From: Liolophura sinensis
Lineage: Eukaryota > Mollusca > Polyplacophora > Chitonida > Chitonidae
DNA: 64,000 nucleotides
Reading direction: 5' to 3'
NCBI RefSeq assembly: GCF_032854445.1
Contig: NC_088298.1
Span: forward strand, 13,319,504-13,383,503
The translations under genes and the position numbers were made by a program. This document shows, one piece after another, positions 46,744 to 63,350 of the stretch; the first letter of the stretch is position 1, and each line of letters opens with the position of its first letter. The notes beneath the pieces were generated by a model. The model was given only the letters and a program-made list of their open reading frames with translations. It had not been told where the DNA came from and did not search any database.

Positions 46744-48303
46744 ATATAAACTACCAGGCAAAAGAAAGGTTTCACCGTATTTTTTGTCATAAAAAAAGTA
46801 AAAGTGCGATTCCGGGTTTGATTCTAAGCAGGACTTAGTGTATGACTGCATCGTTTCCTCTACCAGAACGCATCGTCACGAACGCAGCAATTGGAATTGT
46901 GAAATTGCGATAACATGCAAAACGTCCTTTTGAGGCATGGCTCGTGATTCACGTGCGGTAATGTTGCATAAATACTCTTGCTCGAAAGAGCAGACATTCA
47001 GTGTCCGAAAAAACACCAACAATATGCCAAGACTTAGGCAAGCACAACGAGACCAGGCCATCGGTATGTCCACCATAGGAGTCTCGCAACGTCACATTGC
47101 AAGAACGTTCAACTGCAGCCAAACCACCATCAGGAGGTTGTTGATACGCTATCAGCAGACAGGCCAGACCCAAGACAGACCAAGATCGGGAAGACCGAGG
47201 GTAACAACTGCGGCTGAAGGTCACTACATCCGGCAGATCCACCTCCGAAACCGATTCGTCACGGCGACGTCAACAGCGGCGACGACACTAGGCCATGTCA
47301 TCAGCCCCAGAACAACACTGCGTCGTCTTCGTTCAGCTGGTTTACGACCTTACCGCCCCTTCTGTGGGATGGCCTTGACCCTTTTACACCGTCAACGCAG
47401 ATTGCGATGGGCACGTATTGTACGTCGGTGGCAGCGACGTGACTGGGCGAGAGTGCTGTTTACAGACGAGAGCAGGTTCTGTCTATTCAGGAACGATGAC
47501 AGAGTTCGAGTTTCCCGACGAAGAGGCGAGCGTCTCGCGCCAAACTGCGCAAGAGAGGTTTATCCGTTTGGAGGCGGAGGCGTCATGGTTTGGGGAGAGA
47601 TTTGTGACCAAATGAAGACCCAGTTGGTTATTGTGCGAGGTAATCTGACTGGCCAGCGATACGTTGATGAGGTACTGAGACCTGTCATCTTTCCTTTCCT
47701 CCAACGACAGCCAAGAGGATCGATCTTGCAACACGGCAACGCAAGGCCTCACACTGCCCGCATTGTTACAGACTACCTCAAGACCGCAAACGTCATCGTG
47801 TTGCCCTGGCCAGCCAACTCACCAGACATGAACCCCATTGAGCATCTCTGGGATCACCTTGACCGCCGTTTGAGACAGCTGGTGCCTCCTCCAACTAACC
47901 AACAGGAACTTGAGCAAGCTCTAACCTATGGAACGTTATCCCTGTTGACGTCATCCGGCGACTGACGACGTCAATGCGGAGGCGTGTGCTTGCTTGCATT
48001 GATGCCCAGGGTGGCCACACTCGCTACTGATGACTGTAGTCCTTCATTTCTGTGAATACTGTGACTTTACATGCTCTTGCCAGTTAACTTTACATTTGTG
48101 TAATTTTTTCTTCTGACCCCTTGTCTCTTTCATTGTGTTTTGTGGCCAATTGAATGCCAATATTTTAAAGCCTTTTTGAGATAATATTTCACAATGATTC
48201 CTGTTTATAAACCAATCTTCTTAATTCTTATATCTGCCTTTGTTTTTGTTTTATGGGCTCAAAAAGTGGGTGAAACCATTCTTTTGCCTGGTAGTTTATA
48301 TAA
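46744..48303 (+). mobile_element. Tc1/mariner-like DNA transposon, inactive copy
   Basis: About 1.56 kb bounded by inverted repeats of about 34 bases. The left begins TATAAACTACCAGGCAAAAG near 46746; the right is its reverse complement ending near 48302. The ends sit in TA-rich sequence, as expected for TA target sites, but the exact TA duplication cannot be fixed because the ends read TATATA. It encloses one transposase gene with a lost catalytic residue and a frameshift. It lies about 30 bases from a SINE in the region between Wnt1 and Wnt6. Confidence 0.9.
47024..48030 (+). pseudogene. Tc1-like transposase, D-to-G active site and 3' frameshift
   Basis: Cut-and-paste DDE transposase of the Tc1 group. 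The ATG at 47024 starts the family-like MPRLRQAQRDQAIGM; the open frame extends upstream to 46937 with unrelated residues. The N-terminal helix-turn-helix region (residues about 10-45) is followed by a GRPR linker. The first catalytic Asp is residue 148 (FTDESRF). The third residue is Glu273 (SPDMNPIEHLW). The second Asp, expected in QHDNARPH, is Gly238 (QHGNARPH), a GAC-to-GGC change. The 34-residue spacing to Glu273 is the DD34E pattern. One base is missing near 47927, so the frame ends at 47965; in the shifted frame NVIPVDVIRRL and a final GGHTRY continue to 48030. The copy should be catalytically dead. Confidence 0.92.
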
Positions 48304-51580: not shown

Positions 51581-52268
51581 AAATCAACCAGCCAAGTAGC
51601 CGACAAATCAATCAGTCAAGTAGCCGGCAAGTCAATCCGTCACGTGGCCGACACGTCAATCCGTCAAGCAGCCGGCAAGTCAATAAGCAAGTCAATAAGC
51701 TAAGTAGTCGACAAGTCAACCAATCAAGTAGCCGACAAATCAATCAAGTAGCCGACAAGCCAATCAGTCCAGTAACCGTCTAGTCAACCAATCAAGTAGC
51801 CGACAAGTCAACCAATCAAGTAGTCGACAAGTCAACCAATCAAGTAGCAAACAAGTCAATCAATCAAGTAGCCGACAAATCAATCAATCAAGTAACCAAC
51901 AAGCCAATCAGTCCAGTAACCGGCAAGTCAACCAATCAAGTAGCCGACAAGTCAACCAATTAAGTAACCGAAGGTCAACCAATCAAGTAGCCGACAATTC
52001 AATCAATCAAGTAGCCGACAATTCAATCAATCAAGTAGCCGACAAGTCAATCAGTCAAGTAGCCGGCAATTCAATCAATCAAGTAGCCGACAAGTCAATC
52101 AATCAAGTAGCCGACAAGTCAGTCAATCCAGTAACCGACAAGTCAATCAGTCAAATAGCCGGCAAGTCAATCAGTCCAGTAGCCGATAAGTCAATCAATT
52201 AAGCAGCCGACAAGTGAATCAGTCCAGTAGCCGACAATCAATCAATCAAGTAGCCGACAAGTCAAACA
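51581..52268. repeat. 24-bp tandem array (~28 units)
   Basis: The unit is roughly CAAGTAGCCGAC then AAGTCAATCAAT, repeated over about 690 bases with substitutions and a few partial units. It lies midway between Wnt1 and Wnt6. There is no continuous reading frame. Confidence 0.95.
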
Positions 52269-56071: not shown

Positions 56072-56534
56072 TCACAAGCACCGGTAAATGGTTTTTGTGG
56101 ACACACAAGTATTACAGATGACTTCACAGCACCAGAGAAAACGACACTGACAATTCTCCTTGACGGTCACCTGTGTCTTAGCAAAGCCTCTGTTACAGCA
56201 GAGTATATCACAACCCCCGACCCCCATAGACTTGGGGTCACACTCTCTCCGTGGGTCCCCAAGCTTCCGTTCCGACGGCTCGCTCGGCAAAAGTCAGGCG
56301 ACTGTTCGGAATAAATAAGATCCTGCTTACTGGGAGGTTTTATGGTTTCGCCGACTGGAATTAGTTCTTTGCCGTCGTTAGAGCCCCATGACTTTGGACG
56401 CTCCGTCAAATTTATCCTTCAACCGTAATCCTACGTCTCTGAAGACGGGCATTTTTACGCCAGCATGTCTTCAGCGTGCATGAGCCCGACAAGCCGTGAC
56501 ACTTGCACTCAGTGCGCATGTACTCTTTGACAGC
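56072..56534 (-). pseudogene. Wnt6: Wnt6 terminal exon with three one-base frameshifts
   Basis: 463 bases from acceptor TTTTGCAG to TGA. Read in three successive frames it gives [19 protein letters not shown] and TLKTCWRK; then [20 protein letters not shown]; then [17 protein letters not shown] and [12 protein letters not shown]; then [26 protein letters not shown] and a terminal CL. The breaks are an extra A in the run at 56452-56456, an extra G in the run at 56384-56387, and a missing base in the GA run at 56243-56249. Net change is +1; removing it leaves 462 bases (153 codons plus stop). The literal frame stops at 56412. Conserved CRFHWCC reads CRFLWCC. Sequencing error in short runs is the simplest explanation; an allele or locus in decay is the alternative. 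Confidence 0.85.
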
Positions 56535-59500: not shown

Positions 59501-62192
59501 GTAGTTTATGTGCACTGATATTCTAAGGTTAAAAGATTCACAAACGCGAAACATGAGCATCCGGCGTAAAATGACCGAGAGAAATTCAACCATTAAACGG
59601 CCATCTGCTAAGTTAGAGATCAGACATAGTTTCGTAATAGCCATGTCGCCATACTTTCGTAATTTTGGACGTTTTCAAGTACTTTATTTGTAGTTACTAA
59701 TGGCTATCCGTCTTGCTCAGTTCATATCTGAATTATAATTTGCCAGCAGCTGTTAGAAATCTTGGCAACGGGGGAACTCCTTATGTCACGGGTTCAACTC
59801 CTGGAGTCGATTTGTCGCCTAATTTATTACGATAAAGCGAATCGGATCTTTTGGTGAGGAACCAATCGATTTGCAACGGTACAACCAGAAGGTGTACATG
59901 TCGAACACATTTTAAGTGCAATAAGTGCAAAGGAGAATAATCGGACCACATCCCAACCGTATACACACGAACTGTATAAATACACAAATGGATTCCAAAA
60001 TTATGTTGCAATACAGTCCTGTCACAGTCTTCGTAGCACACGCCACATTCCATCCATGCCACTACAAACATCAGCAAAACACAGGTTTTTCCATGTGTGA
60101 TTTTCAAAATTTGGAATATAATATAAAAGACTGCTGTATATAGAATAAGCCAGAGCAGTCCCTACAGTGTGACAACTGGCAAAAACTCGGCGCCTTTGTC
60201 AGTTTACCCTGGTTAGGGGGTTTTATTTCCAATGTCCATGCAAATACTAAAATAGAAGCAACATAAGCGCACGCTAGCACCATGGCTTACACTGAAAAAA
60301 GATGTATAATATTTAGACGCGTGATAAACATCTCTTTGCGATCGATAATAGACGTGGTTAATATTTAATTGTAACATACTTAAACATTTTTATCCAATTA
60401 CTGAAAATAAGACCGCTGTATAATGTTTCTCACTCCGTTCAAACAATAAACCGATCCAATTTACTACACACCTAACTGCATACACACTATGTATGAAATA
60501 CTGCATTTATTTATGAAACAAAGGCGTGTATTTAAAAAACTAAAAACACCTTGAGCATAATAAAACTTCGCAGTTTTTACAGTGTAACTATAATATGGTA
60601 AACAAAGATTCAGTGATGTTAACTGCAATTTATTACTGGTCTGTCTAGAGAATGCCATGTTATGAACACATTTTGAAAAAAACGAATTCCAAAATTTCCT
60701 TCCTTATAAGACAGAGGCCAATGCAAAAACGAGTCATAAGCACAACGCTACTGCAAGAGCAGGTCGTTGTGACTCCGGTATATGTCTACCATGTCTGGCG
60801 TCGTCAGACCCAGATGTTCCATTACATCATTATTCTTCGGCTCTTGGCTTCAAACTTGACGGCTCACCCAAGTGGTAAGTTTCTGAGGGAATCTCCCACC
60901 TGTTCTCCGGGGTGGTACCTATGGTAGGCGCTGGTGAGAGGCAGTGGCCTAGCAGAAACTATCAAGTTTTTTTTAGTCTACTCCAGACCAGATCTTCCGA
61001 CGACTTTGGGCTACTGTCTAGGCATTCACATAAACAGTTAGAATAAATTCTTAACGGAGGTAAATTGAAATAGGCTGGATTTCATAGGTCACGTGTGACC
61101 ATTTGCCAAATGCCATACAGTCGTCGCTCCTCTGGTTATACTCTGTATGATGTTGTTTTTTTTTATATTTGGCAAACTGCTTGAAGAAAAGTGTATGTGG
61201 ATAACTTAAAAAAAATGTAACAGAAAGTATTTGGCTTACATTCTCAGACTTCACCAAACATTAAATAAATCTTCCTTGTGTGTGAAATAAAGTACGTGTA
61301 ATCAAACGTACATATCTTTTTTTTATTTGTTTTACTTTCTATTTATCTGTTGTTCTCTTTATCATTTGTTGAACTACTCTTGGATGCTCTTGATGCTGGA
61401 GATTAAGATATCCTTCTCCTAACTATAGTGATTTTCCATTTATATCCACTGACAGTCTGTGGAGTTTATGGACAAGGAAGTCGCCCAACATCACACCGTC
61501 ACTTTATTTTTACTGTAAATTTAGGGAATCGCCCGACAACGGGGAGTCAGAGATGTTTTCCCTATTTGAGTATTGTTTAAAGTCATACACTCAAGCCTTT
61601 CAAGCGTGAAGAGTGCCCGGCCCAAACCAACGGCAAGTTAGTGATGAGCTTTCCCACTGGTCCTTTACTGTGACCAGTAAAGTCCCCACAACAAGAGAGT
61701 GGAGGAATCTATAAATGTCCTACCCATGGTCAAAATCTGCTCCTTCGAGTCAGTGTTTTCTTCGTCGTTAAAGGGCTGGCAAGGAGCCATGGTTTCCTTA
61801 GGGTTCTGTGCCGGTTTCTCCGCACATAATTCAGCCACCTCAGTATAAGTGAAATCTTCTTGAACTAGGCATAAAACATCAAATAAATTCAAACATTAAA
61901 TTTAATCCGGTACTTACTAATCTGCCAGCTTCATTATTATGTAGCCTAATCTGTGTGGTTATATCGCCTTTCCGCCTCTTCGGACGAGCGTCCATAAAGT
62001 CTTTTGATTTTACATATCCATATCTGACGTCATCGCCACAGCCACCCCATTCCCAGTGACCGTCGGTGGACGTATCCCGTAGAGGGTTGTCGCATGTACA
62101 CTGTAATAGATTGCCCATACTGCACGCCTGCGTCACTGTGTACACAACTCCAGCAGCAGTAATGGCGTACACAAAAGCGGTTTCCCTCGTGT
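56072..62192 (-). CDS. Wnt6: Wnt6, 3' part (last two coding exons), with apparent frameshifts
   Basis: Secreted Wnt ligand on the minus strand, convergent with Wnt1. Two exons are visible: 61918-62192 and 56072-56534, separated by a 5.4-kb GT-AG intron. DTRETAF, [13 protein letters not shown], [20 protein letters not shown] and [13 protein letters not shown] are Wnt6 signatures; vertebrate WNT6 has the same MDAR-K-R-GD block. The N-terminal exons (signal peptide, WNC region) are not found between 62193 and 64000 and must lie beyond the right edge. The terminal exon holds three one-base indels, so no single frame reaches the stop. The gene is either mis-assembled there or damaged. Identity is secure; functional state is uncertain. 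Confidence 0.92.
59150..59388. repeat. 31-bp tandem array in Wnt6 intron
   Basis: Units of the type GTGGGTGATTTAAAAATGAG then GATTGTACTTT. The last starts, at 59301, 59332 and 59363, are 31 bases apart; older units to the left are more diverged. Confidence 0.9.
60164..60305 (+). repeat. Dispersed ~140-bp repeat family, copy 3
   Basis: See the copy at 34905-35051. The shared landmarks are ACAGTGTGACAACTGGCAAA, GTCAGTTTACC, GGTTTTAT and AGCACCATGGCTTA in the same order. It lies within the Wnt6 intron. Confidence 0.45.
61785..61890 (+). mobile_element. Decayed SINE fragment antisense in Wnt6 intron
   Basis: A diverged 3' half of the SINE family: GGTTTCTCCGCACATAATTC, AGTATAAGTGAAAT, CTTCTTGAACTAGGCATAAA, AACATCAAATAAAT. 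It ends about 25 bases from the Wnt6 donor at 61912-61917. No clear target duplication is seen. Confidence 0.65.
61918..62192 (-). CDS. Wnt6: Wnt6 internal coding exon (penultimate)
   Basis: 275 bases: two bases completing an Asp codon, then 91 codons with no stop. The acceptor, read on the minus strand, is a long T-rich tract ending CCCACAG. The donor is TTA|GTAAGT. The motifs are [52 protein letters not shown] and LHNNEAGRL. Both exon boundaries (phase 1 before TRETAF, phase 0 after NNEAGR-L) match the paralogous Wnt1 introns here. A decayed SINE ends about 25 bases past the donor. Confidence 0.95.
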
Positions 62193-62516: not shown

Positions 62517-63350
62517 ATAGTCCGCACGGCCAGTGCGAACTAGGAGCTTTCCGAAAAAAAAAAACAATAGTCTCCTTGACCAGTGAGGGTCCGGGATTTT
62601 CATACAGAAATCCCCTTGGTCTGTGAGTGCTGGGGAGATTCCCACAGAATCCTTGGCCAGTGCTGCTTTGGGACCTTCTTACAGAAATCTATCATCCTGT
62701 TGGCCAGTGAGTGCTCGGGACCTTCTGACAAAATCCATTAGTTCCTTTGGTTAGTGCGGCCTCGGGACTGCACTAGCCAAAATTGCCAAAATTAACTGCC
62801 CCTTGGCCAGTGAGTGCTCGGGACCTTCGGACAGAAACAGACAGTCCCCTTTTCCAATGCGGCATCGGAAGCTTCATATAGAAATTAACAGTCCCCTTGG
62901 CCAGTGAGCGCTCGGAACCTTCTGACAGAAATCATTAGTCTGCTTGGCTAATGCGGAATCGGGACCTTCCGACAGAAAACAATATTCCCCTTTGCCAGTG
63001 AGGACTCGGGACCTTCCCACAGAAACCAAAAGTCCCCTTGGTTAGTGAGGATTCGGAACCTTTCCACAGAAACCAATAGTCCCCTTGGCCAATGCGGGTT
63101 CTGGACGGTTCACGGAAACCATTAGCCAGTGAGGACTAGGAAACCAACAGTCCCCTTGGTCGGCGAGGGCTTGAAACCTTCATACAGAGATCAATTGTCC
63201 CCTTGCCCAGTGAGCACTCGGGACCTTCCGAAAGAGACCAATAGTCCACACGGCCAGTGCAAATCCTGGACTTTTCGACAGAAATCAATCGTTCCCTTGG
63301 CTAGTGAGGACTAGGGACCTTCCGACAGAAACCAATAGTCCACTTGGCAA
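62517..63350. repeat. ~47-bp tandem array upstream of Wnt6 exon
   Basis: About 17 imperfect units with the landmarks CCCCTTGGCCAGTGAG, CTCGGGACCTTC and GACAGAAACCAATAGT over about 830 bases. It lies in the Wnt6 intron, 5' of the first visible exon in gene orientation. Confidence 0.95.

Follow-up and report, generated by a model that had tools for sequence, protein, structure and literature searches.

The window, as we call the whole stretch of 64,000 nucleotides that was analysed, lies on scaffold C4, the published scaffold_12, of the chiton assembly, which we take for a slightly trimmed version of the Liolophura japonica assembly of PMC11068029. The Wnt genes on C4 follow the order Wnt9, Wnt1, Wnt6 and Wnt10, with Wnt6 on the opposite strand to its three neighbours. 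These and the other subfamily names are putative assignments, based in part on cluster order and on the original prediction. The part of PMC3003278 that deals with this cluster gives the same four-gene order for Daphnia, calls Lottia very similar, and reports that the orientation of Wnt6 and Wnt9 differs among lineages. The chiton cluster resembles the one described there in that the same order is found on one scaffold and the C-terminal sequence of Wnt6 is complete if it is read through, but differs from it in that the last exon of Wnt6 is split over three frames in this assembly. The features of Wnt6 in the window are:

56072 to 56534, minus strand: last coding exon of Wnt6, 463 bases including the stop codon TGA, encoding the Wnt C-terminal region (Pfam wnt positions 152-304)
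56452 to 56456, minus strand: first frame change, at a run of five A on the coding strand (five T as printed)
56384 to 56387, minus strand: second frame change, at a run of four G on the coding strand (four C as printed)
56243 to 56250, minus strand: third frame change, at a GGAGAGAG stretch on the coding strand that is one base short
61918 to 62192, minus strand: preceding Wnt6 exon, 275 bases, open, with an AG acceptor and a GTAAGT donor

Read in the coding direction, the last exon passes from the first reading frame to the second at the run of five A and to the third at the run of four G, and returns to the second at GGAGAGAG. Each of these changes fits a single-base length difference, and the similarity to Wnt proteins is directly continuous over all three breaks, with no space for an intron. 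The original prediction, which had placed three frame changes in the terminal exon of Wnt6, was correct both in coordinates and in description. All three sites fall within short runs or a GA repeat. This context alone cannot tell error from mutation, since real slippage also acts at short runs and runs of at least four make up 9.5% of the bases of the exon.

The preceding exon (62192-61918) closes with a complete codon, which puts the last exon in phase with it, and the splice sites adjoining the last intron are intact. The match to the first exon of Wnt6, outside the window at C4:13386003-13386176, is open as well. That the 275-base exon and the exons of Wnt1 are without a break, as had also been proposed, agrees with our reading: the former is open, and the four profile rows of Wnt1 hold no stop. 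A second copy or haplotig of the last exon was considered and rejected, as its DNA has a single match in the whole genome. Similarly, no second Wnt6 end was found in the Pfam wnt search of the genome, whose 43 rows we assign to about 12 genes, each having a single last exon. In a literature search judged without full texts, no paper on Wnt6 in this species was found.

Several repeats and a mobile-element-like frame were seen near these exons. Between Wnt1 and Wnt6, at 46934-47965 of the window, an open frame of 343 residues resembles, by reading, a transposase of the Tc1/mariner type. A tandem array with a 24-base unit occupies 51593-52265, past the 3' end of Wnt6, and another with a 47-base unit lies at 62653-63348, within a Wnt6 intron.

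When the last exon is read through the three breaks, the protein scores 202.4 bits on Pfam wnt (PF00110) over positions 152-304, where the cut-off is 20.3; the frame pieces scored separately give 91.6, 43.7 and 31.8 bits. The read-through score compares with 201.7-222.9 bits for three intact paralogues. Against solved Wnt structures, the read-through exon matches Wnt-3 over residues 3-152 of 153 (E 2.3e-39), and a search of NCBIfam gave no match. Wnt6 keeps 44 of the 45 columns conserved in at least 10 of 11 paralogues of the same genome, and 32 of the 33 that are invariant in all 11. In a leave-one-out control, each of the 11 paralogues loses 0-4 conserved columns. The sole conserved-column change in Wnt6 is a G to N substitution in the motif CCGRG (CCNRG), at a position that is invariant in 11/11 chiton paralogues. 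Since two base changes in one codon are needed for this substitution, it resembles a difference between lineages more than recent decay. Apart from this one column, no relaxed constraint was found beside the indels, and there is no clear missense decay.

How far a gene could accumulate three indels and still look like this was addressed by simulation of neutral substitutions, in which about 23% of single substitutions placed at random damaged a conserved column or created a stop. At 4-14 substitutions per indel, the probability that three indels arise before the first harmful hit is 0.14 to 0.013; tolerating one such hit raises it to 0.34 to 0.04. At 8 substitutions per indel, the ratio that we assumed, the corresponding values are 0.04 and 0.13, and the probability of zero harmful hits among 24 substitutions is 0.003. 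The simulation speaks against slow decay of Wnt6 but does not settle the matter by itself.

We saw no shift in the remaining 40 Wnt rows of the assembly (11,223 bases), in which the rate derived from the GPCR genes described below predicts about half a shift. In these rows, DNA was read for the last exons and for the majority of the middle ones, and the profile table alone served for most of the first exons and for the C1 gene's middle exon. Last exons are open in 10 paralogues outside the window and in Wnt1 inside it, and so are eight middle exons. Stops are present in 5 of the 40 rows; as the underlying exons are open wherever the sequence was read, we take these rows to run into introns.

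Two other Wnt genes show duplications of their own. In a gene that is presumably Wnt4-like, the first Wnt-profile exon occurs twice, 26.5 kb apart (L062 and L063; C9:22825200-22825700 and 22851750-22852250). The two copies are 97.4% identical over 495 bases and encode the same protein, and the profile table has only one middle and one last exon for this gene. The doubling could come either from a haplotype duplicate that was not purged or from a genuine duplication of the exon. At the start of another Wnt last exon (L009; C12:3082800-3084350), the intron-exon junction looks tandemly duplicated, in that a degenerate copy of about 100 bases, including the splice acceptor and the first codons, is found upstream of it.

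Breaks of the same kind are found in other genes of this assembly that are expected to be intact, namely a Frizzled, a kinase and five GPCR genes. In the search for Frizzled (13/13 candidates scored), one gene on the same scaffold as Wnt6 (L022; C4:5290000-5292500) is split over two overlapping frames. The shift fits one base near position 1685, at about position 235-240 of the 322-position profile, and the receptor continues after it; it is probably also an assembly error. A full-length kinase (L023), presumably ULK3-like and noted for a row with an internal stop, contains two shifts that compensate each other at a distance of about 30 bases; none was found in a second kinase region (L041). 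When the tables for Cpn60 (73/73 candidates scored), HSP70 (58/58) and kinases (131 of 842 candidates scored) were inspected by eye, no rows that overlapped or adjoined in different frames were noticed. The break-free background that such tables would suggest proved wrong in view of the two shifts of L023, and because these were found only on reading the DNA, table rows alone miss shifts. One HSP70 row (C1:28756494-28757417) has a listed open frame of 42,745 residues, a length that presumably arises where the frame enters a run of N.

The GPCR search (PF00001) gave 150 rows with 123,519 bases from 147 of 1,076 candidates scored. We read 37 regions, picked for shortened rows or stops, with about five shortened rows left out, and many of the shortened rows seem, by eye, to stop at introns. 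Five genes with otherwise good sequence (L029, L030, L032, L039 and L049) carry six shifts, two of them in L039, about 150 bases apart. Six shifts in 123,519 bases correspond to about one per 20.6 kb, with the remaining GPCR rows unread; this rate is rough, since the candidates scored were 147 of 1,076 and good matches were favoured. Two further genes were left out of the count: L052, which is shifted but also looks decayed, and L061, which has one stop, belongs to a tandem family and looks like true decay. Since L030 is a paralogue of L052, some of the five shifted genes could be real pseudogenes.

At a uniform rate of one per 20.6 kb, three shifts in 463 bases would have a probability of about 2e-6, so that the clustering in Wnt6 is not due to chance. 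Under the same uniform rate, the chance that one shift has another within 800 bases is about 4%. Since two close shifts were found in 2 of the 7 other affected genes (the kinase L023 and the GPCR gene L039), shifts in this assembly tend to come in patches. An error patch extending into the flanks of the Wnt6 exon was not shown by the repeats within 4 kb, of which the copies listed, with 40 of 466 candidates scored, are old and 68-84% identical. A tandem array of 31-base units at a distance of 2.7 kb from the exon contains no indels.

What could cause such patches is suggested by how the assembly was made. The portion of PMC11068029 on sequencing and assembly describes PacBio HiFi data only, at 14x, assembled with hifiasm 0.16.1 at default parameters, followed by purge_dups and Omni-C scaffolding with YaHS; its assembly section names no polishing step. 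Heterozygosity is given there as 1.24%, and BUSCO completeness as 96.1% for the genome and 90.9% for the proteome. The assembly has 632 contigs. In human hifiasm assemblies, according to the results excerpted from PMC11429912, the indel errors that were removed lay mostly in tandem repeats and homopolymers, and polishing took frameshifts out of genes; 22.8% of the residual error k-mers lay at HiFi coverage below 5x and were attributed to bridging Nanopore sequence. The corresponding passages of PMC7736813 note that a one-base deletion leads to a false frameshift and that errors of HiFi reads are enriched in simple repeats and long homopolymers, the assembly errors counted there being those of a Nanopore assembly. 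We would like to point out that those two studies, in the parts cited, had reads or a truth sequence, whereas the chiton errors are deduced from protein continuity and from other genes, and that the chiton Wnt6 runs are only 4-5 bases long.

A total of 14x together with 1.24% heterozygosity would leave about 7 reads per haplotype. At spots with fewer overlapping reads, the assembler's read correction would lack support, and raw errors from one read, mostly in short runs, could enter the contig. Patches would be expected where single uncorrected reads supply the contig, and the reads over 56243-56456 are predicted to disagree with it.

We argue that Wnt6 is, with high probability, a working gene whose last exon holds a patch of uncorrected read errors. 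The three breaks are most likely assembly errors because the protein is otherwise well kept and like breaks occur in other core genes; as the shifts in the Frizzled, kinase and GPCR genes show that the assembly is not clean, the breaks need not mean a broken Wnt6. Several points go against this reading: Wnt6 stands out in its family, in whose other rows no shift was seen; the flanks did not reveal an error patch; some of the GPCR shifts may belong to real pseudogenes; and the G to N change in CCGRG affects a column that is invariant in the paralogues. The presence of three shifts within 463 bases, when we saw no other in the remaining 40 Wnt rows, the clustering far over the uniform rate, and the heterozygosity of 1.24% (as reported in part of PMC11068029) would instead favour a real null allele, by which the sequenced animal, perhaps in one haplotype, has Wnt6 disabled by the three frame changes. 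We consider such an allele improbable, since no harmful substitution was seen apart from the one two-base codon change (simulated p 0.14 to 0.013), and since the Frizzled and the full-length kinase, which have one-base shifts in the same assembly, suggest a common technical origin. It is likewise unlikely, if marginally less so, that a chiton with the full Wnt9-Wnt1-Wnt6-Wnt10 cluster has a very young Wnt6 null allele in which decay of the protein has not begun.

A fixed loss of Wnt6 in this chiton lineage, the gene being an early pseudogene, would account for a terminal exon that is untranslatable as printed, with no second last exon found in the genome. We regard it as very unlikely, because the last exon has no clear missense decay, two other coding exons are open, the splice sites by the last intron are intact, and the argument from neutral substitutions weighs more, the older the loss. 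That the protein is continuous across each break would also be expected if Wnt6 were translated by programmed frameshifting or if very short introns lay at the three sites. Such a scheme is hardly credible: frameshifting would require recoding at three places within a single exon, and in two directions, very short introns would have no splice space at the breaks, and unrelated genes would need the same. Of what had originally been predicted, the suggestion that breaks at short runs reflect long-read error is thus the best-supported reading, given the preserved protein and the like breaks in seven other genes. The alternatives that it left open, a null allele or a loss of Wnt6 function, are not supported, as there is no clear missense decay, all three changes fit shifts of one base and seven genes have like breaks; the clustering, for which a null allele had been left open, is seen also in 2 of the 7 other affected genes. 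The breaks in Wnt6 are most likely an ordinary artefact and not a real feature.

Judging from its GPCR rows, this assembly carries frameshifting indels at a density of roughly one per 20 kb of coding sequence in the matches, with several in some genes. At such a rate, claims of gene loss or of pseudogenes made from the assembly need reads or transcripts. Gene models made automatically may be truncated or absent for Wnt6 and a Frizzled, and this would mimic gene loss when Wnt signalling is compared among molluscs.
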